Positions 3,518 to 46,986 of a DNA stretch of 64,000 nt are shown here, piece by piece. The translations under genes and the position numbers were made by a program. The number at the start of each line of letters is the position of its first letter. Position 1 is the stretch's first letter. The stretch spans positions 1,503,501-1,567,500 of the forward strand of contig NZ_CP080649.1 in the NCBI RefSeq assembly GCF_019603315.1, read 5' to 3'. The notes under the pieces were generated by a model. That model was not told where the DNA came from, made no database searches, and was given only the letters and a program-made list of their open reading frames with translations. The stretch is from Ruficoccus sp. ZRK36 (GTDB lineage Bacteria; Verrucomicrobiota; Verrucomicrobiia; Opitutales; Cerasicoccaceae).

Positions 3518-5710
3518 TTGAAGGACTCGACTCGACTTCTGCTAATCGGACTGGGGGCGCTTGCTGTGGTCGGTGCTGGCTGGGGCATTTTCTCCCGCCT
3601 GCACCGCGAGGAGGCACCGCCGGTATTGACGACGGCGACAGGGGTTGAGGGGACGGCGGCTTTTCCGATCACGTTTTTTCCGGAGCGCCATGAGCAGTTC
3701 AGCGCGCAGGCGTGCCGGGCCTGCCATGAGGATGCTTTTCAGGATTGGCTGCCGAGCGACCACGCGCACGCGAACCGCCCGGTCTCGGTCGCGCTGGATG
3801 CCCCTGCCTTTGACCCGCCGCGCGAGATTGCCGTGCCGGGCGAGACCTTTGGATTTACGCTGGCTGATGGGAAATTCTGGATGAAGGTCCAGCCGGATGA
3901 CGGCGGTGACGCTGAGCGCTATGCGCTGGAGGGTGTGATCGCGGTCATCCCGCTGCGCCAGTACCTGGCCCGTCTGCCCGGTGGGCGCTGGCAGAGTACG
4001 AGCGTCGCCTATGATCCGGCTGCCGACGAGTGGTTTGATGTGTTTAAAGGGGACGAGCGCCACAGTGGTGAGTGGGGCCACTGGGCGGGGCAGGGGATGA
4101 ACTGGAACGCCAACTGTGCCTGGTGCCACATGACCGAGTACCAGAAAAACTTTGATTGGCAAAGCGACAGCTACCACACGACATGGCTGGAGCAGGGCGT
4201 ATCCTGCATGCAGTGCCATACGGGGATGGAGGAGCACGTGGCCGCTGCTGGCCCGGACTACGCTCCACCGGTCAAGACCCTCAGCGCGCGCCGGGCGATG
4301 GAGAACTGCGCCTCGTGCCACTCGCGCAGAGATCAGTTGACACCCGACACCTTTAAGCCGGGCGATATTTACCACCAGCACTTCGCGCTGGCGCTGCCGG
4401 ATCAACCGGGCCTCTATCACCCGGATGGGCAGATTCTCGACGAGGACTACGTTTACGCGTCCTTCCTGATGAGCCCGATGGGCCACGCCGGGGTCACCTG
4501 TCTGGACTGCCACAACCCGCACTCCGGCAAGACGATTCTGCCCATCGCGGACAATAGCCTGTGTATGCGCTGCCATAGTACCGGGCTGGACGGGGCGAAG
4601 ATCATCGACACGGTCGCGCACGGTCACCATGCCCCCGGCAGCATGGGTAACAGTTGCGTCGAGTGCCACATGCCGCAGACGACCTACATGCAGCGCGACC
4701 CACGCCGCGACCACGGCTTTCTCTCGCCCGATCCGCTCATGACCGCTGAGCTGGGCATCCCCAATGCCTGCCAGCGCTGCCACACCGAAGAATCGACCGA
4801 GTGGGCCGTCGAATGGGCTGAAAAATGGTACGGGGATAAACTTGCAAACAAGCTGCAGCGCCAGCGCGCCCGCACACTGGCTGCCGCGTACGCCGGTGAG
4901 CCCGCCGCAGCCCAGTCGCTGCTACAGCTCGCAGCGGACGAGCCCAACCACGCCTGGCGAGCCACCTACACCGGGCTGCTTGGCTACTACGTGCCGCAAG
5001 CTGATGTGCTGGCCTATCTGGAAAAAGCGTTGGAGGATGACAGCTCGATGGTTCGCGCGCGGGCCGTGGGTGGTCTCTCCCGTTTGCCCCAGGCGGAGCC
5101 TGTGATCGCCCCGCGCCTGAAGGACCCGTCCCGTAACGTTCGCATCGCCGCCGAGCAGGCTTACGCAGGCTGGGGGCAATCCGTTCCTGATGCCGAGGCG
5201 GCACAGGAGTGGCAGGCTTATCTGGAGTTTCAGTCTGATCGCGTGATGGGGGCCTTTATGCTGGCCGACCAGAAAATCCGCGAGGGTGACACCGCGCAGG
5301 CCAAGCAACTCATCCGGCAGGCGGTGGCGCTCGACTCTGCCTCCCCGGAAATCCTGCGTCAGGGAGCGGTCATGTACAGTATGATGGGCGATAATGCCGC
5401 TGCCGAGCAACTGCTGCAGCAGGCGCTTGATAAAGCACCCGAAGTCGCGCTACTGCACTACTCGCTGGCGCTGCTCTATGCAGGACAGGGGCAGCTCGAA
5501 GAGGCGATTCCGCTGCTGGAGAACGCCGTTTCCCTCGACCCGCACTTTTACCGCGCCTGGTATAACCTCGCCCTGGCCCGCACCAAGATTGGCCAGTGGC
5601 AGAAAGCCGCCTACGCGCTGGAAAAGGCCGCTCCCGCCTACGCTAACGACCCCGGCTGGCAGCAGACCCGCGCCATCGTCGAGCGTCAGCTCGCAAATGG
5701 CGGAAGGTAG
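3518..5710 (+). CDS. Octaheme c-type cytochrome with HEAT-like and TPR repeats
   Basis: Membrane-anchored or exported multiheme cytochrome, 730 residues. A hydrophobic N-terminal segment (about residues 6-25) is followed by eight CxxCH haem c sites near residues 67, 200, 229, 264, 328, 348, 380 and 417, in a cytochrome c554-like region. After the haem domain come HEAT-type helical repeats (about 445-560, with MVRARAVGGLSRLPQ and SRNVRIAAEQAYAGW) and then TPR repeats (about 585-720, with ASPEILRQGAVMYSMMGDNA). Such proteins shuttle electrons in the periplasm, and the repeats suggest docking to partners; the redox partner is unknown. The only in-frame start after the stop at 3482 is TTG at 3518. 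An out-of-frame ATG at 3507 opens a 4-codon ORF ending at 3521. No haem-lyase or quinol oxidase gene is adjacent. Confidence 0.9.
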   Translation: MKDSTRLLLIGLGALAVVGAGWGIFSRLHREEAPPVLTTATGVEGTAAFPITFFPERHEQFSAQACRACHEDAFQDWLPSDHAHANRPVSVALDAPAFDPPREIAVPGETFGFTLADGKFWMKVQPDDGGDAERYALEGVIAVIPLRQYLARLPGGRWQSTSVAYDPAADEWFDVFKGDERHSGEWGHWAGQGMNWNANCAWCHMTEYQKNFDWQSDSYHTTWLEQGVSCMQCHTGMEEHVAAAGPDYAPPVKTLSARRAMENCASCHSRRDQLTPDTFKPGDIYHQHFALALPDQPGLYHPDGQILDEDYVYASFLMSPMGHAGVTCLDCHNPHSGKTILPIADNSLCMRCHSTGLDGAKIIDTVAHGHHAPGSMGNSCVECHMPQTTYMQRDPRRDHGFLSPDPLMTAELGIPNACQRCHTEESTEWAVEWAEKWYGDKLANKLQRQRARTLAAAYAGEPAAAQSLLQLAADEPNHAWRATYTGLLGYYVPQADVLAYLEKALEDDSSMVRARAVGGLSRLPQAEPVIAPRLKDPSRNVRIAAEQAYAGWGQSVPDAEAAQEWQAYLEFQSDRVMGAFMLADQKIREGDTAQAKQLIRQAVALDSASPEILRQGAVMYSMMGDNAAAEQLLQQALDKAPEVALLHYSLALLYAGQGQLEEAIPLLENAVSLDPHFYRAWYNLALARTKIGQWQKAAYALEKAAPAYANDPGWQQTRAIVERQLANGGR

Positions 5711-5721
5711 ATGGGGAGAGA

Positions 5722-5968
5722 GCGGGGCTACGCACCCCGCACCCGCGGCAGCCAAAGCCTGCACTTTCGATGCTGCGCATCGTGTCAGCGATTACCGCAA
5801 TGAGTTTCGCTCATTGCGGTAATCGCTGAGATGACAAACATCATAACTGGGTCGCCACCCTTTGGAGACCCATTAGCTGTCCCGGTACGTATGCACTGCG
5901 CATGGCATTTTCTCCTGAAAATGCCAAAGTGATCGAAGGATCACAGGTCAAGGACTCTGTCCTTGGGC
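5722..5968. repeat. Modular hairpin cluster A
   Basis: A string of perfect short inverted repeats fills the gap between the convergent cytochrome gene and carA. In order: GCGGGG/CCCCGC (5722-5740), CGATG-CTGCG-CATCG (5768-5782), a 20-bp stem with a 5-nt loop (5785-5829) whose outer arms are TCAGCGAT and ATCGCTGA, GGCATTTT-CTCCTG-AAAATGCC (5904-5925), GTGATC-GAAG-GATCAC (5929-5944) and CAAGGAC-TCT-GTCCTTG (5949-5965). The same modules in the same order recur at 44907-45186, and as the reverse complement at 15696-15932. None is followed by a T tract, so they are not ordinary terminators. Confidence 0.85.
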
Positions 5969-7126
5969 CTAGGCCTTGACCTTGGCGACCATCTCGTAGA
6001 ACTGCGTGAAGAGCGGGTCGGCGTCGTTGGGGCCGGGGGCGGCCTCCGGGTGGTACTGTACGCTGAAGATCGGCAGCTCCTTGTGGCGCAGGCCCTCGAC
6101 GGTGTCGTCATTGAGGTTAAGCTCGGTCACGACGCCGCCGCACTTTTCGATTTCGGCACGCGTCGAGGCAAAGCCGTGGTTCTGCGAAGTGATGGAGACC
6201 TGGCCGGTTTCGATGTTCTTGACCGGTTGGTTTCCGCCACGATGGCCGAACTTCAGCTTGAAGGTCTTGGCGCCGAGAGCGTGAGTGATGATCTGGTGGC
6301 CGAGGCAGATCCCGAAGGTCGGGTAATCCTGCATCAGCTTGGAAATGCTCTGGTGGGCGTAGGTGACAGCGGAGGGGTCACCGGGTCCATTACTGAGGAA
6401 GAGGGCGTCGGGGGCCAGCTCACGAACCTGCTCCGGGCTGGCGGTGGCGGGCACCACGTACACATCGAAGCCGTGGTTGTGCAGACGCTTGAAGATCGAG
6501 TGCTTGGCCCCGAAGTCGAAGGCCGCGACCTTGAAGGTCTTTTCCGGGCGCGTAAAGTGGTTGAGCGTGGTGCCGGTGATTTTAAAAGGTTCGCTCAGGG
6601 AGCCGTCCGGGTCGAAGTCGTAGGGGTCCTTGCAGGTGACTTCCTTGACATAGTCCACGCCGACCAGGCCGGGCCATTCCTTGGCGCGGCGCACGGCTTC
6701 CTCGTCGGAGAGTTCTTCCGTGCTCAGGCAGGCCTTCATGGCACCGGCTACACGCAGGCGCTTGGTGATGGCCCGCGTGTCGACGCCCGACAGACCGGGG
6801 ATAAGGTTCTTTTCCAGGTACTCGGGCAGGGACAGGGTGCTGCGCCAGTTGCTGGAGACAGGGGAGAGGTCGCGCACGACAAAGCCGGAAACCTTCGGGC
6901 CGTCGGACTCCTCGTCCTCGGGGTTGATCCCGTAGTTACCGATCTGCGAGGCCGTCATGGTGACGATCTGCGCATAGTAGGAGGGATCGGTGAGGATCTC
7001 CTGATAACCCGTCATCGACGTGTTAAAGACCGCTTCGCCGACGACGGTCTTGGCCGCGCCAAATGCTTTACCCCGGAAGACGCTGCCATCTTCCAAGGCG
7101 AGAATACCGCTACGTGAGGTGCCCAT
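5969..7126 (-). CDS. carA: Carbamoyl-phosphate synthase small subunit (glutamine amidotransferase)
   Basis: Hydrolyses glutamine and channels ammonia to CarB to make carbamoyl phosphate for pyrimidine and arginine synthesis. At 385 residues it has the normal length. The N-terminal CPSase small-chain domain (about 1-140, GYQEILTDPSYYAQIV) is followed by a class I glutaminase domain with the nucleophile Cys274 in FGICLGHQI and the His359/Glu361 pair in VQYHPEA, so the catalytic triad is complete. The large subunit carB is not in the window. The gene stands alone on the minus strand, downstream of a small response regulator and ending directly against hairpin cluster A. Confidence 0.97.
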   Translation of the reverse strand: MGTSRSGILALEDGSVFRGKAFGAAKTVVGEAVFNTSMTGYQEILTDPSYYAQIVTMTASQIGNYGINPEDEESDGPKVSGFVVRDLSPVSSNWRSTLSLPEYLEKNLIPGLSGVDTRAITKRLRVAGAMKACLSTEELSDEEAVRRAKEWPGLVGVDYVKEVTCKDPYDFDPDGSLSEPFKITGTTLNHFTRPEKTFKVAAFDFGAKHSIFKRLHNHGFDVYVVPATASPEQVRELAPDALFLSNGPGDPSAVTYAHQSISKLMQDYPTFGICLGHQIITHALGAKTFKLKFGHRGGNQPVKNIETGQVSITSQNHGFASTRAEIEKCGGVVTELNLNDDTVEGLRHKELPIFSVQYHPEAAPGPNDADPLFTQFYEMVAKVKA

Positions 7127-12015: not shown

Positions 12016-12252
12016 CTGGGGCTCCGCGCCCCAGACCCGCGGCAGGCAAAGCCTGCACTTTCGATTAAAGACTCATGCTGCGCACGAGTCTTTAATCGTC
12101 ATTGAGGTTCATCCTGTCACGAGCCCGCCCAAATGTCTTTGTGGTTTAGATGTGTTCATTGGTCCACGACTTGTCCTGGTGGCGCCCCATTTTTTGATGA
12201 GTTGTCGGGGCAGCGACTGAAAGGAGCGATGGGGCAGAGCCCCATCAATGCC
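12016..12252. repeat. Modular hairpin cluster B
   Basis: Fills the gap between the convergent exported-protein gene and hpnG. Modules: CTGGGG/CCCCAG (12016-12034), GCAGGC-AAA-GCCTGC (12042-12056), a 13-bp stem CGATTAAAGACTC with an 11-nt loop (12062-12098), and GATGGGG-CAGAG-CCCCATC (12228-12246). The block 12207-12250 matches 45147-45190 in cluster D with only two differences over 44 bases. The 12062-12098 stem looks like the simple CGATG-CTGCG-CATCG module of other clusters, with a complementary pair of arms inserted symmetrically. Confidence 0.8.
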
Positions 12253-12272
12253 AGCGGAGGTACTCAGCCCCG

Positions 12273-12911
12273 CTACTGGGCTAGCTCGGCGGCAATGGCC
12301 TCGGCGAGGGCGTGGCGGACGGGGTCCCAAGTGCGCAGCAGGCGACGCAGGCGGAAGATGTCGCCGGGGTGGGTGAGCAGGTGCGCGGCCATGCGCAGCG
12401 GGGTTTCCTTGCCGCGTGCGCGGTCGAATCCCTTGTCGAGAAAAGCGGGCATCTCCTCTGTGGCGGTGTCGCTGATGGCGCGGATGACGGTCAGCGGCAC
12501 GCCTGCGGCGGTGGTGGCTTCGGCTACGGGAGCGGACTCCATATCGACGACCGGGCAGCCGGTTTTTTCAAAGATGGCGGCCTTCTCGGCAGGGGTGGAG
12601 ACGACGTCGGCGGCGGTATGGATTTTTCCCTCGCCGCGGTCGATCACGATGTCCCCGCGCTGGAGCGAAGGACCGAGTGCGCCTCCGAACCCGGCCAGGA
12701 TGACCCGCTTGGGTTTGACCAGGCGGATGGCCTCGACGGCGGGCTCGACACAGTGGACCGGCCCCATCCCGATGAGCGAGACGTGCACGGTCTGCTTCCC
12801 GATTTCGCCGACCCACGCCGGGCGGCGCCCCATCTGGTAGGAAGCGGCATGCCCGAGTTTATGCACGAACGGCGCAGCCTCAAAAGCGGTAGGTATCAGA
12901 ATCAGGGACAT
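12273..12911 (-). CDS. hpnG: Hopanoid-associated nucleosidase/phosphorylase HpnG
   Basis: Member of the purine nucleosidase/phosphorylase (PNP_UDP_1, MTA/SAH nucleosidase-like) family, 212 residues. In hopanoid pathways HpnG removes adenine from adenosylhopane to give the ribosyl-type intermediate. Visible family signs are the GMGPVHCVEPAVEAI helix (about 49-63), VILAGFGGALGP (about 70-81), and the nucleoside-binding VVDMESAPVAEA (about 120-131) with an ISDTA motif further on. The identification as HpnG rather than a housekeeping nucleosidase rests on its place between hpnH and the squalene genes. It is on the minus strand with hpnDE and hpnC, but a plus-strand gene lies in between, so the three are not one simple operon. 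Confidence 0.82.
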   Translation of the reverse strand: MSLILIPTAFEAAPFVHKLGHAASYQMGRRPAWVGEIGKQTVHVSLIGMGPVHCVEPAVEAIRLVKPKRVILAGFGGALGPSLQRGDIVIDRGEGKIHTAADVVSTPAEKAAIFEKTGCPVVDMESAPVAEATTAAGVPLTVIRAISDTATEEMPAFLDKGFDRARGKETPLRMAAHLLTHPGDIFRLRRLLRTWDPVRHALAEAIAAELAQ

Positions 12912-13029: not shown

Positions 13030-13470
13030 ATGATAGTTCGAATACAGCGTGTGATATTGTTGTGCTGCCTTATAGCTTTAACTCCAATGGCGTTGCTGGC
13101 TGCCTTAGGAGGCGTTGGGCTTGCGAGTGAGGCGATGACAACTGGAGTTAACTCGTACTGGGAGTTGTTGGGGATTGTGTGGCTTTTCCTTGCGATAGTT
13201 TTGCCGGTTGGCGCAATGCTATTACTGGCCAAGCTTGCAGATGAGGGATATGGAAAGAGGCTTCGGCACAGGTTACTAGGATACTATTTATTCTCGTTTG
13301 TCTATTGTGGTACCTGGGCTTACTCCGTTATCGGAGTCGGTGGTTTATCGTCCATGATTAAATCTTCAGTGATTGGACTGATACTGGTTGAGGCGGTTTT
13401 ATTGCTTCCGGCCTTAATCACATTATTTTCCCATCCTCAAAATATACCTACCGGTCCAGAGCCTCGCTGA
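13030..13470 (+). CDS. Hypothetical membrane protein, 146 aa
   Basis: No family recognised. Four hydrophobic segments are visible (about residues 7-28, 46-68, 84-104 and 110-132), so it is a small polytopic inner-membrane protein; the C-terminus FSHPQNIPTGPEPR is soluble. Base and codon use are clearly more AT-rich than in the flanking hpn genes, which suggests later insertion. It sits on the plus strand between hpnG and hpnDE (both minus), and its last 23 bases overlap the 3' end of hpnDE in a convergent arrangement. It breaks up what would otherwise be an hpnC-hpnDE-hpnG run. Whether it has any role in lipid metabolism is unknown. Confidence 0.6.
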   Translation: MIVRIQRVILLCCLIALTPMALLAALGGVGLASEAMTTGVNSYWELLGIVWLFLAIVLPVGAMLLLAKLADEGYGKRLRHRLLGYYLFSFVYCGTWAYSVIGVGGLSSMIKSSVIGLILVEAVLLLPALITLFSHPQNIPTGPEPR

Positions 13471-15634
13471 TGGCGAAGCCGCTGAGGGCGGCGCCTTCGA
13501 GGGTGGCGGGCAGGCCGGTGGCGGTCCAGTCGCCGGCCAGCAGAAGGTTGGGCCAGGGGGCGGCAGTCGGGCTGGGACGGTGAAGCTCGGTCACCGGTTG
13601 CGCGGCAAAGGTGGCGTCGCGACTCTTGTAAACGAGCGAGCGGCTGATCTCCATCTCTTTGGCGGCGGGGAAAAACCTCTCCAGCTCGGTGCGCAGGGTG
13701 GCGACGATCTCGTCGCTTTTCATGTCCAGCCACTGCTGGGCGGCGCTGGCGATGACGGCGTAGAGGTGCTTGCCGTTGTGCTCGGGCGGGAGCGTGTGGG
13801 TGCGGTCAAAGACCCAGTGTACGGGCGAGTCGAGCAGCCCGACGAAGTCCGCCCCGTTGGTGTAGAGCGGGCGATCCGTCACCAGATGGATACCCATGAT
13901 GGGCGCCGAGCCGATGGCCTCGACGTGGGCGCGCAGGGGTGAGTCCTCGGGTAGTAGGCCGCGCAGGGCGGTCCAGGGCAGGGCGCTGACGAACAGCTCC
14001 GCCTCGATGCGCTCGCCGCGCGGGGTCAGGGCAGCGCTGACGCGCTCGCCGGTGATTTCGAGGGCGGCGATTTTAGAGGAAAGATGGACGCCTCCGCCGA
14101 TGCTTTTCAGGAAGAGCTCGGCCTCGGGCTGGAACAGCTCGCTGAGGCCGACCTTGCTCACGATGATGTCGGCGGCGTCGGACTTGCCGAAGAGCGAGCG
14201 GCGCAGCGTCTCGTGCAGCAGGCGGGCGCTGGCAGTGGCGAGCGTCTCATTTAGCGCGGCCACGCAGAACGGCTCCCACAGGGCGCGGATGGCTCCGGCG
14301 GTTTGCCCGTGGCGGGCCATCCAGTCACCAGCGGTCTCATCGGCAGCCGGGGCAGCCTCCAAGCGCATGACGACGCCCATGCGCAGGATGCCCAGCCGGT
14401 CGGCGGTGCTGAGTTCGGAAAATTTAAACAGGCCCCCAAGCAGCGCGAGGGAGCCGGGTAGGGGCTGGGAGGCCAGCTCGGACCAGCGTCCGCCGGGGCT
14501 GACGTAGGGGACCTTCAGGCGCGGCTGGCGCTCGAGTTTATCGCCGATGCCGAGCAGCTCCACCAGTTGCAGAAATCCCGTGTAGCAGCCCATGACGATG
14601 TGCTGGCCGTTGTCGATGGTCAGGCCGGTAGCGGCATCGGTCAGGCTGTGGGCGCGGCCACCCAGATAGGTGCGTGCCTCGTAGAGGTGCGGCGTAAAGC
14701 CCTGGATGCCCAGCTCAAGCGCGGCAGTGATCCCGGCCACGCCGCCACCGAGCACAGCGGCCCTCCCGGGCAGACTGCGGGCCTGCGGCTCGCCCTTGAT
14801 CTGGCGCAGCGTACGCAGCATCAGGCGCAGTTTGCGGCCCTTGGAGAGGCGGGTGCGCTCGACCGTGATCGCGAAGTCGTTGGCCGCGATTTTGTCCAGG
14901 ATGTCCTCGTAGATAGCGCCCATGACGAGGGCGGCTTTGAGGTGCTGGCGCTCGGAGTCGGGCAGGAGCCGCCGGGCTTTGTTAAAGAAGTGTTTGCAGC
15001 GGTAGTAGCAGAGCCGGAAGAGCTTCTGGCAGGCGGGGTTGCGGGTGGGGTCGGCGAGGTCGTCCTCGCTGATTCCGAGCGCGGCCAGCTCGTCCTGCGG
15101 CAGGTAGACGCGGCCCATCTTGACCTTGTCCTCGACCACGTCGCGCAGGATGTTGGTAAATTGCAGGGCGTAGCCGAGTGTCTCCGCAAACTCCGGGGTG
15201 CGCGGGTGGGTGCAGCCGAAAATCTTGATCGAGACCAGGCCGACGGCCGAGGCGACTCCGTAGCAGTATTTTTTCAGGTCCACGAAGCTGGCGAAGCGTG
15301 CCCCTCCGATGTCCATGGAGACCCCGTCGATGATGGCGAGCAGGTCGGCCTTTTCCACCCCGAAGCGGTCGATGACGGGCTTGAGCTCGTGCATGAGCTT
15401 CAGTTCGCCGGGCTCGGGCTGGTAACAGGCCTCGATCTCCTCGCGCCAGGCGGCAAACTCCGTGCGTTTTTCTTCGTCGGTGCGTCCGGGTTCGTCGGCG
15501 ATGTCGTCGGCCACGCGGCAGAAATCGTAAAACACCGCCATCGCTTCGCGGCGCTCGGGATCGAGCGACATAAAGGTGTAGGCGAGATTGGATTTCTTGC
15601 GGGCTTTGACCGCCTCTTTCGACTCGGAGGACAT
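13448..15634 (-). CDS. hpnDE: Fused presqualene diphosphate synthase / hydroxysqualene dehydroxylase (HpnD-HpnE)
   Basis: One 728-residue reading frame joins two enzymes that are usually separate. Residues 1-280 are HpnD, a trans-isoprenyl diphosphate synthase that condenses two farnesyl diphosphates; its Asp-rich motifs are DDIAD (43-47) and DVVED (165-169). After a short linker (about 281-290) comes HpnE (291-728), an FAD amine-oxidase-like dehydroxylase that reduces hydroxysqualene to squalene, starting with the dinucleotide-binding LGGGVAGITAALELG and ending with the FAD-contact ATLEGAALSGFAISEAL. No stop or frameshift separates the halves, so this is a true fusion and not a sequencing split. 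HpnC, which performs the middle step, is the next gene upstream on the same strand, beyond hairpin cluster C. Confidence 0.93.
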   Translation of the reverse strand: MSSESKEAVKARKKSNLAYTFMSLDPERREAMAVFYDFCRVADDIADEPGRTDEEKRTEFAAWREEIEACYQPEPGELKLMHELKPVIDRFGVEKADLLAIIDGVSMDIGGARFASFVDLKKYCYGVASAVGLVSIKIFGCTHPRTPEFAETLGYALQFTNILRDVVEDKVKMGRVYLPQDELAALGISEDDLADPTRNPACQKLFRLCYYRCKHFFNKARRLLPDSERQHLKAALVMGAIYEDILDKIAANDFAITVERTRLSKGRKLRLMLRTLRQIKGEPQARSLPGRAAVLGGGVAGITAALELGIQGFTPHLYEARTYLGGRAHSLTDAATGLTIDNGQHIVMGCYTGFLQLVELLGIGDKLERQPRLKVPYVSPGGRWSELASQPLPGSLALLGGLFKFSELSTADRLGILRMGVVMRLEAAPAADETAGDWMARHGQTAGAIRALWEPFCVAALNETLATASARLLHETLRRSLFGKSDAADIIVSKVGLSELFQPEAELFLKSIGGGVHLSSKIAALEITGERVSAALTPRGERIEAELFVSALPWTALRGLLPEDSPLRAHVEAIGSAPIMGIHLVTDRPLYTNGADFVGLLDSPVHWVFDRTHTLPPEHNGKHLYAVIASAAQQWLDMKSDEIVATLRTELERFFPAAKEMEISRSLVYKSRDATFAAQPVTELHRPSPTAAPWPNLLLAGDWTATGLPATLEGAALSGFAISEALDR

Positions 15635-15695
15635 GGGTACTTCGGGGAAGCCGCTAGTTGTCAGGATAATACGGCGCTATGGCAAGGCTCTATTG

Positions 15696-15932
15696 GCAGG
15701 ACAGTGTCCTGCACCTGTGATCCTGCGGATCACCTTGGCATTTTCAGGAGAAAATGCCATAGCGCCACTTTTATGGGTACCGAGCTCAAGGACATCAATG
15801 AGGTGCCCGAGTTTTGATACTCTGCTCAGCGATTAGTGAAAACAGCTTAGCTGTTTTCACTAATCGCTGACACGATGCGCAGCATCGAAGTGCAGCCTGC
15901 GGCTGCCGCGGGTGCGGGGCGCGCAGCCCCGC
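15696..15932. repeat. Modular hairpin cluster C (inverted copy of A/D order)
   Basis: Occupies nearly all of the 309-base gap between hpnDE and hpnC. In order: GCAGGAC-AGT-GTCCTGC (15696-15712), GTGATC-CTGCG-GATCAC (15717-15733), GGCATTTT-CAGGAG-AAAATGCC (15737-15758), a 20-bp stem with 5-nt loop (15826-15870), CGATG-CGCAG-CATCG (15873-15887), GCAGCC-TGC-GGCTGC (15892-15906) and GCGGGG/CCCCGC (15914-15932). This is the exact reverse of the order in clusters A and D, and asymmetric loops are reverse-complemented too. It ends 12 bases from the hpnC stop. Confidence 0.85.
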
Positions 15933-15943
15933 GAAAACACAGC

Positions 15944-16819
15944 TTAGCGCGTGAAGGCGGCTTTTTGCAGGAGCTTGACCTTGTCGAAGGCGTTGATCTT
16001 GGGGCGGGCGCTGACGGTGTCGTAGTTGGCGGCGATGATCTTGTCCAGGATCGTCTGCCCGCCGAGCCAGGTGATGCGGATCTCCATGCTCAGCGGGAAG
16101 GGCAGATGGCGGCTCAGGACGCGGCCCTCCTTGAACATCGCATAGGTGCGCTCGACCTGGAACTGCATGCAGCGGCGAAATTGCTCCGTAGCGGGCGGGC
16201 TGGAGAACATCTCCTCGGTCACGCCGTAGGTGGCCCAGTCCTCCAGCGGGATGTAGACGCGGCCGTCCTTTTTGATATCGATGCTGACGTCCTGCCAGAA
16301 GTTGGCCAGCTGGAGCGCAGAGCAGATCTGGTCCGACCAGGCGAACTTCTGCTCGTCGGCGTGGCCGTGGAGGATGAGCACGAGGCGGCCGACCGGGTTG
16401 GCGCTACGGCGGCAGTAGTCGAGCACCTCGTCAAAGGTCTCGTAGCGCAGTTTTACGCAGTCCTGCTTAAAAGCGCTCAAGAGGTCGCGAAAGAGCTGAA
16501 GCGGGGCACCGGTCTTTTTCATGGTGTCGGCGACGGCGAGAAATATCCACGCGTACTCGTCGCAGACGGCGCGGCCCTCTGCGGCGTTGACGAGCTGCTC
16601 CTCGTAGGCGTCGAGGGCGGTCACACGCTCCTGCGGGGTGGGGCTGGCGCTCTGGCCCCAGCCCTCGTCGGCGAGGTCGTCCGCCGTGCGCGCAAAGGCG
16701 TAGACCGCACTCACGTAGGGGCGGATCGCCTTGGGGACGAGCCGGGCCACGGGGAAGTTCTCGTAGTGCTCGCGGGTCAGATCGTGGCAGCGCGCGTAGG
16801 ATTCGTCGACGGTCATCAT
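15944..16819 (-). CDS. hpnC: Hydroxysqualene synthase HpnC
   Basis: Squalene/phytoene synthase family enzyme that converts presqualene diphosphate to hydroxysqualene. The two Asp-rich substrate/Mg motifs are DDLAD (residues 47-51) and DVSID in ANFWQDVSIDIKKDGRVYIP. The protein is 291 residues from the ATG at 16819; an adjacent ATG at 16816 and a GTG at 16843 are also possible, but the extra WLCWGVS residues do not fit the family. With HpnD and HpnE in the next gene, it completes a farnesyl-diphosphate-to-squalene route. The LANFWQDVSID segment helps separate HpnC from HpnD, which has QFTNILRDVVED instead. Confidence 0.92.
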   Translation of the reverse strand: MMTVDESYARCHDLTREHYENFPVARLVPKAIRPYVSAVYAFARTADDLADEGWGQSASPTPQERVTALDAYEEQLVNAAEGRAVCDEYAWIFLAVADTMKKTGAPLQLFRDLLSAFKQDCVKLRYETFDEVLDYCRRSANPVGRLVLILHGHADEQKFAWSDQICSALQLANFWQDVSIDIKKDGRVYIPLEDWATYGVTEEMFSSPPATEQFRRCMQFQVERTYAMFKEGRVLSRHLPFPLSMEIRITWLGGQTILDKIIAANYDTVSARPKINAFDKVKLLQKAAFTR

Positions 16820-17044
16820 GGAAACGCCCCAGCAAAGCCACACCGGGGCACCGGGGCAAGTCTGCTCTTGGCCGGAGTTGTACTGCTGCCGCTATTCAGA
16901 TCCGGCAAGGGGCCTTATGGTGTCGGGCTGAACTAGACAGCTTTTCTGCTATCATCTACAGGGTCGCCGACGGAGATTGACAGGCGAATGCCTTATTATA
17001 AGATGTGATGCACGTCATTAAAACGACAAATCCTTTCAGCGCGC

Positions 17045-43870: not shown

Positions 43871-44854
43871 TTAAGGCTTTTCCAGCCGCTTGGCGTAGCG
43901 GGCGGCCATGACCGCGCAGACCATGAGCTGGATCTGGTGAAAGATCATGAGCGGCAGTACCATCAGCCCCACGGCCGCAGGAGGGAAGAGTACGTTGGCC
44001 ATGGGCACACCGTTGGCCAGGCTCTTCTTGGAGCCGCAGAAGACGATGGTGATTTCGTCCTCTTTTCCGAACCCCAGCAGGCGTGCTGCGTGGATGTTGA
44101 TGAAAAGGACGACGGCCAGCAGGACGCAGGAAAAAAGCACGATCATCCCGATGCTAAACAGATCGATCTGCTTCCAGATCCCGCCCACCACGGCCTCGCT
44201 GAAGGCCGTGTAGACGACCAGCACGATCGAGCTGCGGTCGGTGATGTTGATCGCTTTCTTGTAGCGGTGGATGAGGCCCTTAAGCAGCGGACGGCAGAGG
44301 TGCCCGATGACAAAGGGCAGCATCAGCTGCAGGCAGATGGCTCGAATCGCCCCCAGAGTGTCGCCGGAGCCGCCTTCCTGCGTCTCCATCAGCAGGCCGA
44401 CCAGTATTGGCGAGAGGAATATACCCAGAATGCTGGAGGCTGAGGCGCTGCAGACCGCTGCCGGGATATTGCCCCCGCCGATCGAGGTAAAGGCGATGGC
44501 CGACTGCACCGTGGCGGGCAGGGCACACAGGTAGAGAAAGCCGAGGTAAATGTCCTCGTGCATGGGGTGGGGGACAAAGAGCTGCATCCCCAGCCCGAGC
44601 AGCGGAAACAATATAAAGGTGCTGGCAAAGATCGTCAGGTGCAGCCGCCAGTGCCCGAGCCCACCGATGAGTGCCTGACGCGGCAGCTTTGCCCCATGCA
44701 TGAAGAACAGCAGCGCGATGGCCGCTGTCGTCAGGTGCCGGAAGATCGTATCACCCACACCATGCGCCGGCAGAAAGCTGGCCAGCACGACCGCCCCGAT
44801 CAGTACGATCAGAAAACCGTCAATGTGCGTACGCTTGAGCCAGGAGGTGAGCAT
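43871..44854 (-). CDS. Bile acid:sodium symporter-family transporter (SBF-like, YfeH type)
   Basis: Inner-membrane transporter with about ten hydrophobic segments, 327 residues from the ATG at 44854 (a TTG at 44866 would add 4). It has the SBF-like blocks LTTAAIALLFFMHGAKLPRQ (about 42-61), CALPATVQSAIAFTSIGGGN (about 110-129) with the unwound helix found in BASS proteins, and FCGSKKSLANGVPMANVLFP near the C-terminus, the signature of the YfeH branch. The substrate of YfeH-type members is unknown; the ASBT group moves bile acids or pantoate with sodium. The stop lies 3 bases from the convergent gene. Confidence 0.9.
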   Translation of the reverse strand: MLTSWLKRTHIDGFLIVLIGAVVLASFLPAHGVGDTIFRHLTTAAIALLFFMHGAKLPRQALIGGLGHWRLHLTIFASTFILFPLLGLGMQLFVPHPMHEDIYLGFLYLCALPATVQSAIAFTSIGGGNIPAAVCSASASSILGIFLSPILVGLLMETQEGGSGDTLGAIRAICLQLMLPFVIGHLCRPLLKGLIHRYKKAINITDRSSIVLVVYTAFSEAVVGGIWKQIDLFSIGMIVLFSCVLLAVVLFINIHAARLLGFGKEDEITIVFCGSKKSLANGVPMANVLFPPAAVGLMVLPLMIFHQIQLMVCAVMAARYAKRLEKP

Positions 44855-44906
44855 GGGATAAAGCAATGCCTCAAACCGCCCCCCACCGCCAGTCGAAAAG
44901 GTGTGA

Positions 44907-45186
44907 CTGGGCTTACGCAGCCCAGACTCGCGGTGCGTGTCCGCACTCGACTTTCGATGCTGCGCATCGTGTCAGCGATAACTTAAACCAGCCGCGCTGG
45001 TTTAAGTTATCGCTGAGCAGAGCATCAAAACTGGACCGTCACTATGGGAGGATAAATCTAGTCTGCGGGGCACGAACCGTTGATGGCATTTTCTCCTGAA
45101 AATGCCAAGGTGATCCAAAGGATCACGGGTCCAGGGCTATGCCCTGGGGGCAGCGACTGCAAGGAGCGATGGGGCAGAGCCCCATC
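44907..45186. repeat. Modular hairpin cluster D
   Basis: Fills most of the 341-base gap between the transporter and ilvB. Modules in order: CTGGGCT-TACGC-AGCCCAG (44907-44925), CGATG-CTGCG-CATCG (44955-44969), a 20-bp stem with 5-nt loop (44972-45016), GGCATTTT-CTCCTG-AAAATGCC (45085-45106), GTGATCC-AAA-GGATCAC (45110-45126), CCAGGGC-TAT-GCCCTGG (45131-45147) and GATGGGG-CAGAG-CCCCATC (45168-45186). The segment ACTTTCGATGCTGCG continuing to TCAGCGAT is identical with cluster A over about 30 bases. The last 44 bases match cluster B with two changes. Confidence 0.88.
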
Positions 45187-45207: not shown

Positions 45208-46986
45208 CTAGTCGGTGAGAATGTCCTTGGCGCCCTTTTTCTGCGGGATAAAGGGCAGCACATGCTCGGTGTAGGGGATGAGCACGTCCAGCAGGTACGG
45301 GCCGTCGTGGGCGAGCATTTCCTTGATGGCCGGGAGCAGGTCTTCCTTTTTGTAGATGCGTCGGCCAGCGATGCCGTAGCCCTTGGCGATACCCGCAAAG
45401 TCCGGGTAAACCGCGTCGATGTTATCGGGGCTGCCGATGTTCTCCGGGTCGCAGAGGATGGTGTGGCCGCGCACGCCGTCGTAGAAGCGGTCTTCCCACT
45501 GCACGACCATGCCCAGGTGCTGGTTGTTCAGGAGCATGATCTTGGCGTCGATCTTCTCGATCTTGGCCGTGGCCAGCTCCTGGATGTTCATCTGGAAGGA
45601 GCCGTCACCCTCGATGTTGATGACGGTCTTTTCCGGGAAGGCGACCTTGGCGCCGAGGGCGGCCGGCAGGCCAAATCCCATCGTGCCCAGCCCCAGAGAG
45701 CTAATGAAGTGGCGCGGTTCCTTAAAGTGGTAATACTGGGGGGCCCACATCTGGTGCTGACCGACACCGGTCGAGATGATGGCTTCGCCCTTGGTTTCCT
45801 CGTAGAGAGCTTTAATCGCATCCTGAGCGAGGATGTACTTGTCGCTCTCCTTGTAGGTAAAGGGGTAGGGGTGCTGTTTTTTCCAGCCGTTGATGGTGGT
45901 GTACCACTCAGACAGGTCGGGCTTGGCGAACTCACCGGCCTTGATCAGCTCGATCATACGCTTAAGCGCGTACTTGAGGTCGCTGTGGATCGGGAAGTGC
46001 GTGTGCTTGTTTTTGTTGTGCTCGGAGCGGTCGATGTCGAAGTGGACAATCTTCGCCTCGGGGGCGAACTTCGAGACGGTGCCGGTGATGCGGTCGTCGA
46101 AGCGCGCGCCGATGCAGATCAGCAGGTCCGAGTCGCACACCGCCCAGTTCCCGGCGACGGTGCCGTGCATACCAAACCAGTACAGGCTCTGCGGATCATC
46201 CGGCGGGAATGCACCCAGACCCATCAGGGTGGAGGCGACGGGGATGCCCGTCAGCTTGGCAAACTCACGCAGTTCGTCCGAGGCGTGAGCGGAGATGATG
46301 CCGCCGCCGATGTAGAGAGCCGGTTGCTTGGATTCGGAGATCAGGCCGAGCACTTCTTTGAGCTGCTCATCGGAAGCCTCCGGCAGGGGCGGGTAGCCGG
46401 GGATGTCCACGGCACCGGGAAAGACCGGCTCGAACACCTTCTGCTGGACGTCCTTGGGGATATCGATCACGACCGGGCCGGGACGGCCGGTGGTGGCGAT
46501 GATAAAGGCCTTTTTGATGATCATGGGCAGCTCCTCAGCCTCTAGCACGAGGAAGCTGTGTTTGACCACAGGCAGGGTCATCCCGAAAAAGTCTGTCTCC
46601 TGAAAGGCCGTCTTACCGATGAACTCCTGAAACACCTGGCCGGTGATGGCGACCAGCGGGATGGAGTCCATAAAGGCATCCGCGATACAGGTCACGAGGT
46701 TCGTCGCGCCGGGGCCGGAGGTGGCCATGCACACGCCGGGCTTACCGGTGGCGCGGGCGTAGCCATGGGCCATGAAGCCGCCTCCCTGCTCGTGGCGGGG
46801 CAGGATCGTACGCAGTTTTTTGGCGCGGGTCAGGGCCTGGTGCAGCTCGATCGAAGAGCCGCCCGGATAGGCGAAAATGACGTCTACGCCCTCACGCTCC
46901 AGGCACTCTACGACGACGTCGGCGCCCTTCATGGCGGGTCCTTTTTCGTCTTGTGGCGGGAAGCTGACAAGGGGTTCGGTCTTCAT
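45208..46986 (-). CDS. ilvB: Acetolactate synthase large subunit
   Basis: ThDP-dependent enzyme that condenses two pyruvates (or pyruvate and 2-oxobutyrate) in branched-chain amino acid synthesis; 592 residues. Conserved parts: the catalytic Glu in [13 protein letters not shown], the FAD/central domain, and the C-terminal ThDP/Mg motif [15 protein letters not shown] ending near [15 protein letters not shown]. The FAD-binding and quinone-like loop [10 protein letters not shown] is present, which marks an anabolic AHAS. A second ATG at 46932 has AAAGGA upstream and would begin at [12 protein letters not shown], where family similarity starts; either start is possible. No regulatory subunit gene ilvN follows; hairpin cluster D does. 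Confidence 0.95.

Follow-up and report, generated by a model that had tools for sequence, protein, structure and literature searches.

How can a long DNA hairpin change its sequence and still stay perfectly paired? This question is raised by three hairpins, here named B hairpins, found in a stretch of 64,000 nucleotides (the window), which corresponds to positions 1503501-1567500 of the 3.76-Mb genome of Ruficoccus sp. ZRK36 (G000). An initial annotation of the window had described them as perfectly paired 20-bp hairpins with constant outer 8 bp, unrelated inner arms and no intermediates between them, and had proposed either a mechanism that writes both arms at once or the capture of foreign sequence. 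All three hairpins are present exactly at the positions collected in Table 1, and such a match occurred in 0 of 100 dinucleotide shuffles.

The window holds a small part of a larger family. The pattern of the exact outer arms was found in 23 copies in G000 and in 11, 2 and 0 copies in three congeners (G001, G002 and G003, respectively), while, of the 54 genomes searched, one more (G005) gave a single match, with inner parts that do not pair. The 36 exact copies known at that stage supplied 23 sequences for a covariance model of 102 positions, which detected 50 non-redundant copies scoring at least 59 bits in G000 (51 matches, one of them a duplicate) and 84 copies in the congeners (50 in G001, 22 in G002 and 12 in G003). 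These copy numbers are lower bounds, because scoring in each genome was limited to the top 150 candidates of the first-look step. When 177 genomes of the order were searched with stricter filters, taking the best 22 candidates of each, matches were obtained in the four genomes of the genus and weakly in G005 (45.7 and 39.9 bits). The B-hairpin repeat family is nearly restricted to the genus, the two weak matches lying in a sister genus. A scan of named contigs returned ten matching stretches in the Verrucomicrobiota MAG JB024; a match in a Lactococcus piscium contig was without a stem and was discarded as chance.

Several hairpins make up a composite intergenic repeat, in which the B hairpin varies between conserved flanks. 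Aligned copies share the left flank consensus GGCGACCCAGTTTTGATGCTNTGC and the right flank CACGATGCGCAGCATCGAAAGTGCAG, followed by the hairpins HP2 and HP3. On the far side of the B module, across a spacer, stands one of three modules, typed by eye: module A, another hairpin, ending CGAAAGTGCAG; module C, GGCATTTTC..GAAAATGCC, present at all three window loci; or module D, ATGGGGC..GCCCCAT. The shared HP2 motif occurs at 58 places in G000, and the 30 that we looked at carried a B-type hairpin in 25 cases and another hairpin in 5. In some composites this motif is apparently present at both ends, most being paired with other modules. Within HP2 of several copies (L015, L032, L108, L031, L141 and others) we observed a nested mini-hairpin similar to GGTCCGGCTGGACC, as if a second small repeat had been inserted. 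At 12018-12280 of the window, a related composite repeat has a D module opposite a type A hairpin, CGATTAAAGACTCATGC..GCACGAGTCTTTAATCG. Some type A hairpins (window 12098-12104 and similar) have at their base CGTC, by which one REP super-family is tagged, and G001 copies have CGAC in its place.

In many copies the repeat ends close to a stop codon. An inward-reading open frame finishes 20-90 nt from the HP3 end in 65 of the 116 copies with enough flank (the stop-codon rule of Table 1), compared with 6% for letter-shuffled flanks, a simple null; in 28 more of the 116 the frame runs to less than 20 nt, which makes them ambiguous. Copy 2 lies between two squalene/phytoene synthase genes on the minus strand (window 13448-16843), one of them fused to, or read together with, an amine-oxidase domain. 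Searching the window against Rfam at the gathering threshold gave RNase P as the sole match. The region of copy 1 (255 nt) folds better than its shuffles, with z -9.9 as DNA and z -7.9 as RNA. The repeat probably is, or once was, a mobile element of a REPIN/MITE-like kind.

Table 1. B hairpins of the window, their flanks and modules, the neighboring genes and one related repeat end
Feature	Position	Strand	Remarks
Multihaem cytochrome/TPR gene	ending at 5710		3' end adjoined by the copy 1 flank
Copy 1 conserved flank	5722..5784	-	HP3 5722-5740, HP2 5748-5762, HP1b 5768-5782; by eye
B hairpin, copy 1	5785..5829	-	perfect 20-bp stem, 5-nt loop; strand is the family's common orientation
C-module hairpin, copy 1	5904..5925	.	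GGCATTTTC..GAAAATGCC; far side of copy 1
carA	5969-7126	-	3' end beyond the copy 1 C-module hairpin
Related repeat end	12018..12101	-	type A hairpin (12063-12098) in place of B hairpin
C-module hairpin, copy 2	15737..15758	.	
B hairpin, copy 2	15826..15870	+	
Copy 2 conserved flank	15871..15932	+	HP1b 15873-15887, HP2 15892-15906, HP3 15914-15932; by eye
Squalene/phytoene synthase gene	15944-16843	-	3' end adjoined by the copy 2 flank
SBF-like transporter gene	43871-44866	-	copy 3 flank lies upstream of it; exception to the stop-codon rule
Copy 3 conserved flank	44907..44971	-	HP3 44907-44925, HP1b 44955-44969; by eye
B hairpin, copy 3	44972..45016	-	
C-module hairpin, copy 3	45085..45106	.	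followed by D module (ATGGGGC..GCCCCAT)
TPP-enzyme gene	45208-46986	-	3' end after the copy 3 C and D modules

With the family in hand, we asked how the hairpin itself varies. A total of 134 copies were extracted, the hairpin having at least 14 bp in 133 of them, and 124 hairpins were unique. The constancy of the outer 8 bp did not hold: TCAGCGAT is the outer 8-mer in only 35 of 129 hairpins, others being TCAGCGTT (21), TCTGGGAT (13), TCAGGGAT (11) and TCTGCGAT (7), and 37 distinct outer 8-mers were counted, some of which are register artefacts. Where the outer 8-mer varies, the partner arm is usually altered to match. These positions had looked constant because the initial annotation had matched on them. 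The inner arms are not unrelated either, as the copies form a graded series in which copy 1 and copy 3 each have a sister copy. Copy 3 and the copy at G000:1371992 are one base pair and an inverted loop (CGC/GCG) apart. For copy 1, a 14-base piece of the arm, searched genome-wide with at most one mismatch, had no matches beyond its own two arms and the two arms of a sister hairpin at 1228443; capture of foreign sequence is not borne out by this arm, the one tested.

Perfect pairing, exact in the three window hairpins, is frequent in the family and not universal. With a fixed outer boundary, 88 of the 124 unique hairpins are perfect and 36 have at least one non-Watson-Crick pair, so that intermediates, said to be missing, do occur. 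The 2600 stem pairs comprise 2521 Watson-Crick pairs, 23 G·T (0.9%), 11 A·C and 45 other mismatches. A scoring that trims the ends gave 2523 Watson-Crick, 17 G·T, 8 A·C and 40 other pairs of 2588, with 92 perfect and 32 of 124 imperfect hairpins; it over-extends L009 and L016, and the fixed-boundary count keeps its end for L164 and L149, in which the boundary motif is missing. Imperfect copies and a graded compensatory series, which had been put forward as the mark of ordinary RNA-structure conservation, are partly present, and what stands is near-perfect pairing despite sequence change.

The two arms change together. Between hairpins one pair apart, both sides had changed in 55 of 69 comparisons, which are not independent of each other. 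When the 104 arm types were joined in a minimum spanning tree (not a phylogeny), edges of up to 2 differences contained 79 two-sided and 20 one-sided changes, 32 edges with more than 2 differences being left out of the counts. Changes from one Watson-Crick pair to another numbered 77: 36 A-T/G-C, 24 flips and 17 A-T/C-G, meaning that 41 of the 77 (the flips and the A-T/C-G changes) cannot pass through a single G-T intermediate. Among the one-sided changes, 7 were G·T, 3 were A·C and 10 were of other types, and G·T intermediates are scarce.

As a control we took RNase P RNAs of the same bacterial family, from ten genomes, and folded them with RNAalifold, which gave 93 pairs. Here, 142 of 910 ungapped cells were G·T (15.6%), and 60 two-sided changes were counted against 66 one-sided ones, 50 of which were G·T; the control counts all tree edges, and long edges favor two-sided changes. 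Among the four genus members alone, we counted 4 two-sided versus 16 one-sided changes. Fisher tests of the hairpin against RNase P, on the end-trimming numbers, gave P 1e-6 for two- versus one-sided changes, 2e-67 for G·T content and 0.001 for the G·T share of one-sided changes, values that are indicative only, given that cells are not independent.

Loops invert between close relatives. Of 133 hairpins, 123 could be written with a 3-nt loop (10 were dropped), and 114 were unique within their genome. Pairs with at most one arm difference had inverted loops in 12 of 79 cases, compared with 3.8 expected when loops were shuffled within genomes (P 0.001); with at most two arm differences the count was 28 of 214 against 10.6 expected, reached in 0 of 1000 permutations. 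Identical loops were about as frequent as inverted ones, 8 at up to one arm difference and 23 at up to two. When arms were identical, inverted loops were seen in 2 of 13 pairs, which was not significant (P 0.09). Copy 3 and its sister at 1371992 are an inverted-loop pair. Four copies in G003 include both matched forms, L079 and L162 (the latter with one extra base pair), and mismatched forms, L090 and L099, whose inner parts are mutually inverted. These mixed forms could also be explained by recombination between copies.

The joint change of the arms, the low G·T content with respect to RNase P and the inverted loops point to copying between arms at the DNA level. Arm homogenisation and spacer inversion are described as signatures of template switching in passages of two studies (PMC8604942, PMC8794818), and we infer that the arms undergo template switching during replication. 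A point mutation in one arm would produce a quasipalindrome; the growing strand at replication would then switch template and copy the other arm, writing the change into both, and inter-strand switches would invert the loop as well. Repeated over time, such events would let the stem drift in sequence and retain a near-perfect inverted repeat. Concerning the initial proposal that both arms are written at once, snap-back-like copying is backed by the two-sided changes, the few G-T pairs and the inverted loops; hairpin-end resolution and a dedicated writing mechanism are hypothetical. Our preferred reading, to which we give about an even chance, is a REPIN/MITE-like repeat in which the perfection of the hairpin is maintained at the DNA level, probably by template-switch (quasipalindrome) correction.

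Some observations limit this reading. A G-G mismatch close to the loop has persisted in several G001 copies (L126-L129, L134) while their stem changed two-sidedly at other pairs, and the persistence of this mismatch counts against arm copying. Another observation concerns the type A hairpins, of which 13 are unique, mostly with GNA loops: 18 of their 220 cells are G·T (8%) and 3 of the 13 are perfect. Arm copying, therefore, does not perfect every hairpin, and the retention of G·T pairs in type A counts against a purely mutational account, unless these pairs are themselves selected.

The main competing account is selection acting to keep the DNA hairpin strictly paired, a possible explanation that we hold to be short of probable. 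It supposes that a protein or a transposition step recognizes the shape of a strictly Watson-Crick hairpin when it is extruded or single-stranded, leaving the arm sequence free; mutations that spoil pairing would be lost, and second-site changes would restore it. In favor of selection, strictness is specific to certain hairpins, with G·T contents of 0.9% in B against 8% in type A. In the B module, HP1b has 696 of 696 cells Watson-Crick and HP2 613 of 618, with 2 of 618 G-T, although both were picked by motif, which inflates their strictness. Strict pairing is not common to every hairpin of these repeats.

Selection would also account for the rarity of full-length hairpins that are heavily decayed, most being either close to perfect or lost. 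As the covariance model rewards pairing, we searched G000 with the right flank only and obtained 55 places: 43 with a full-length hairpin, 11 with a shortened or missing one (L111, L113-L116, L118, L119, L211-L213 and L215) and 1 (L214) that is not element-like. Among the 43, 35 hairpins are perfect over the whole stem and 8 have one mismatch or a small indel. Hairpins in G000 are near perfect or gone, with the exception of L112, a model match outside the flank-only set, which has four defects. L111 (G000:419729) and the ten other lost copies mostly keep about 8 bases of one outer arm beside an intact right flank. Copies with diverged flanks are somewhat less often perfect (13/21 versus 59/74; Spearman 0.18, P 0.04, a rough measure that includes register artefacts), as selection would predict. 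Selection alone, however, leaves the excess of inverted loops unexplained, as it does flips and A-T/C-G changes with few mismatched intermediates, unless such intermediates are strongly harmful. Arm copying and selection may act together.

A further alternative is that the hairpin is rewritten at each copying or transposition cycle, one arm of a folded intermediate serving as template for the other, so that perfection and loop orientation would be reset whenever the element moves; we regard this as unlikely. In its most active form, just as doubtful to us, such rewriting would be linked to the element, and the family would go on generating perfect new hairpins, their loops oriented at random, as a component of its movement or recognition. 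Rewriting per cycle would fit the large number of copies and of loci, the finding that most hairpins are either perfect or lost, and a near-random loop orientation among close relatives. Judging by flanking genes, several copies occupy the same intergenic regions of two species. Eight such orthologous pairs were aligned, and none has the same hairpin in both species; they stop short of proving a change in place, since the differences extend to the other half of the composite. At two such orthologous regions (L055/L088 and L075/L133) the two species have the whole element, which bears hairpin modules at either end, in opposite orientation with respect to the genes, as rewriting with movement would allow. 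Against it, there is no Y1 transposase (PF01797) in G000, G002 and G003, none of the four in G001 has a B module in its locus, and the mismatch common to several G001 copies survived copying.

Ordinary RNA-structure conservation, in which the hairpin would work as RNA and be compensated in two steps, we consider very improbable. The graded series with some imperfect copies, the good RNA fold of the copy 1 region (z -7.9) and the position of 65/116 copies close to the end of inward-reading frames agree with it. The pair statistics disfavor it and make it unlikely: G·T pairs amount to 0.9% versus 15.6% in RNase P and to 7/20 versus 50/66 among one-sided changes. Moreover, loop inversions would alter the RNA loop. 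Two simpler candidates were rejected, an intrinsic terminator (0 terminator-like sites at 5690-5990 around copy 1, and no T-run beside the B hairpin in aligned copies) and a REP moved by a RAYT (PF01797 absent from 3/4 genus genomes, its 4 members in G001 being at loci without a B module).

Across four related genomes, the B-hairpin family repeats a single hairpin between conserved flanks some 130 times, as a natural series of replicates. Arm copying and selection can be told apart by the types of pairs and of changes and by the orientation of loops, and the type A hairpin, which keeps G·T pairs, provides an internal contrast within the repeats. The family is also one of palindromic repeats for which most host genomes show no evident transposase. 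Repeats and MITEs such as ERIC, RU, BOX and bcr1 are non-coding, modular, structured and present in many copies, and the B-hairpin repeat is like them in these respects, by description and not by sequence. The variable hairpin tips also bring to mind integron attC sites, IS200/IS605 ends, retrons and group II introns.

The B-hairpin repeat is extragenic, palindromic and numerous, as are the RAYT-associated REPs and REPINs with their GTAG and CGTC tags. In the passages of PMC3116915 and PMC3733652 that describe them, these elements often lie between convergent or same-direction genes and have conserved ends and a less conserved, hairpin-forming middle in which compensatory changes are common; a passage of PMC3733652 describes Opitutus terrae, also a member of Verrucomicrobia, as rich in GTAG repeats. 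No GTAG or CGTC tag was seen by eye at the base of the B hairpin in the aligned copies, whose flanks read TGC before the hairpin and CACGATGC after it. The B-hairpin repeat further differs from REPs and REPINs by its longer stem, by being a composite of several hairpin modules and by the absence of a Y1 transposase from three of the four genus genomes. It resembles REP and MITE elements in the way it would work, and we do not claim that it is either of them.

The general kind, a palindromic repeat, and the template-switch mechanism are already known, and among the papers listed from an open-access collection on Verrucomicrobia palindromic repeats, template switching, MITE-type repeats, and palindromes or spacer inversion, nothing was recognised as the B-hairpin family. 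Long perfect stems that change sequence without visible intermediates are presented as an evolutionary puzzle in the abstract of PMC8794818. The matched-arm changes and inverted loops seen here resemble the homogenisation of arms by template switching (PMC8604942, PMC8794818). Passages of those two sources treat events inferred in genes of yeast and in trees of rRNA, the latter showing few loop inversions, whereas the present case is a multi-copy bacterial intergenic repeat in which loop orientation is nearly random among close copies. In nematomorph mitochondria, perfect inverted repeats are reported for which template switching was proposed as the maintaining mechanism, according to a passage of PMC6649704. 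Those palindromes share with the B hairpin the perfection of the inverted repeat, and differ from it in being long and placed inside mitochondrial genes, whereas the B hairpins belong to a dispersed intergenic family.
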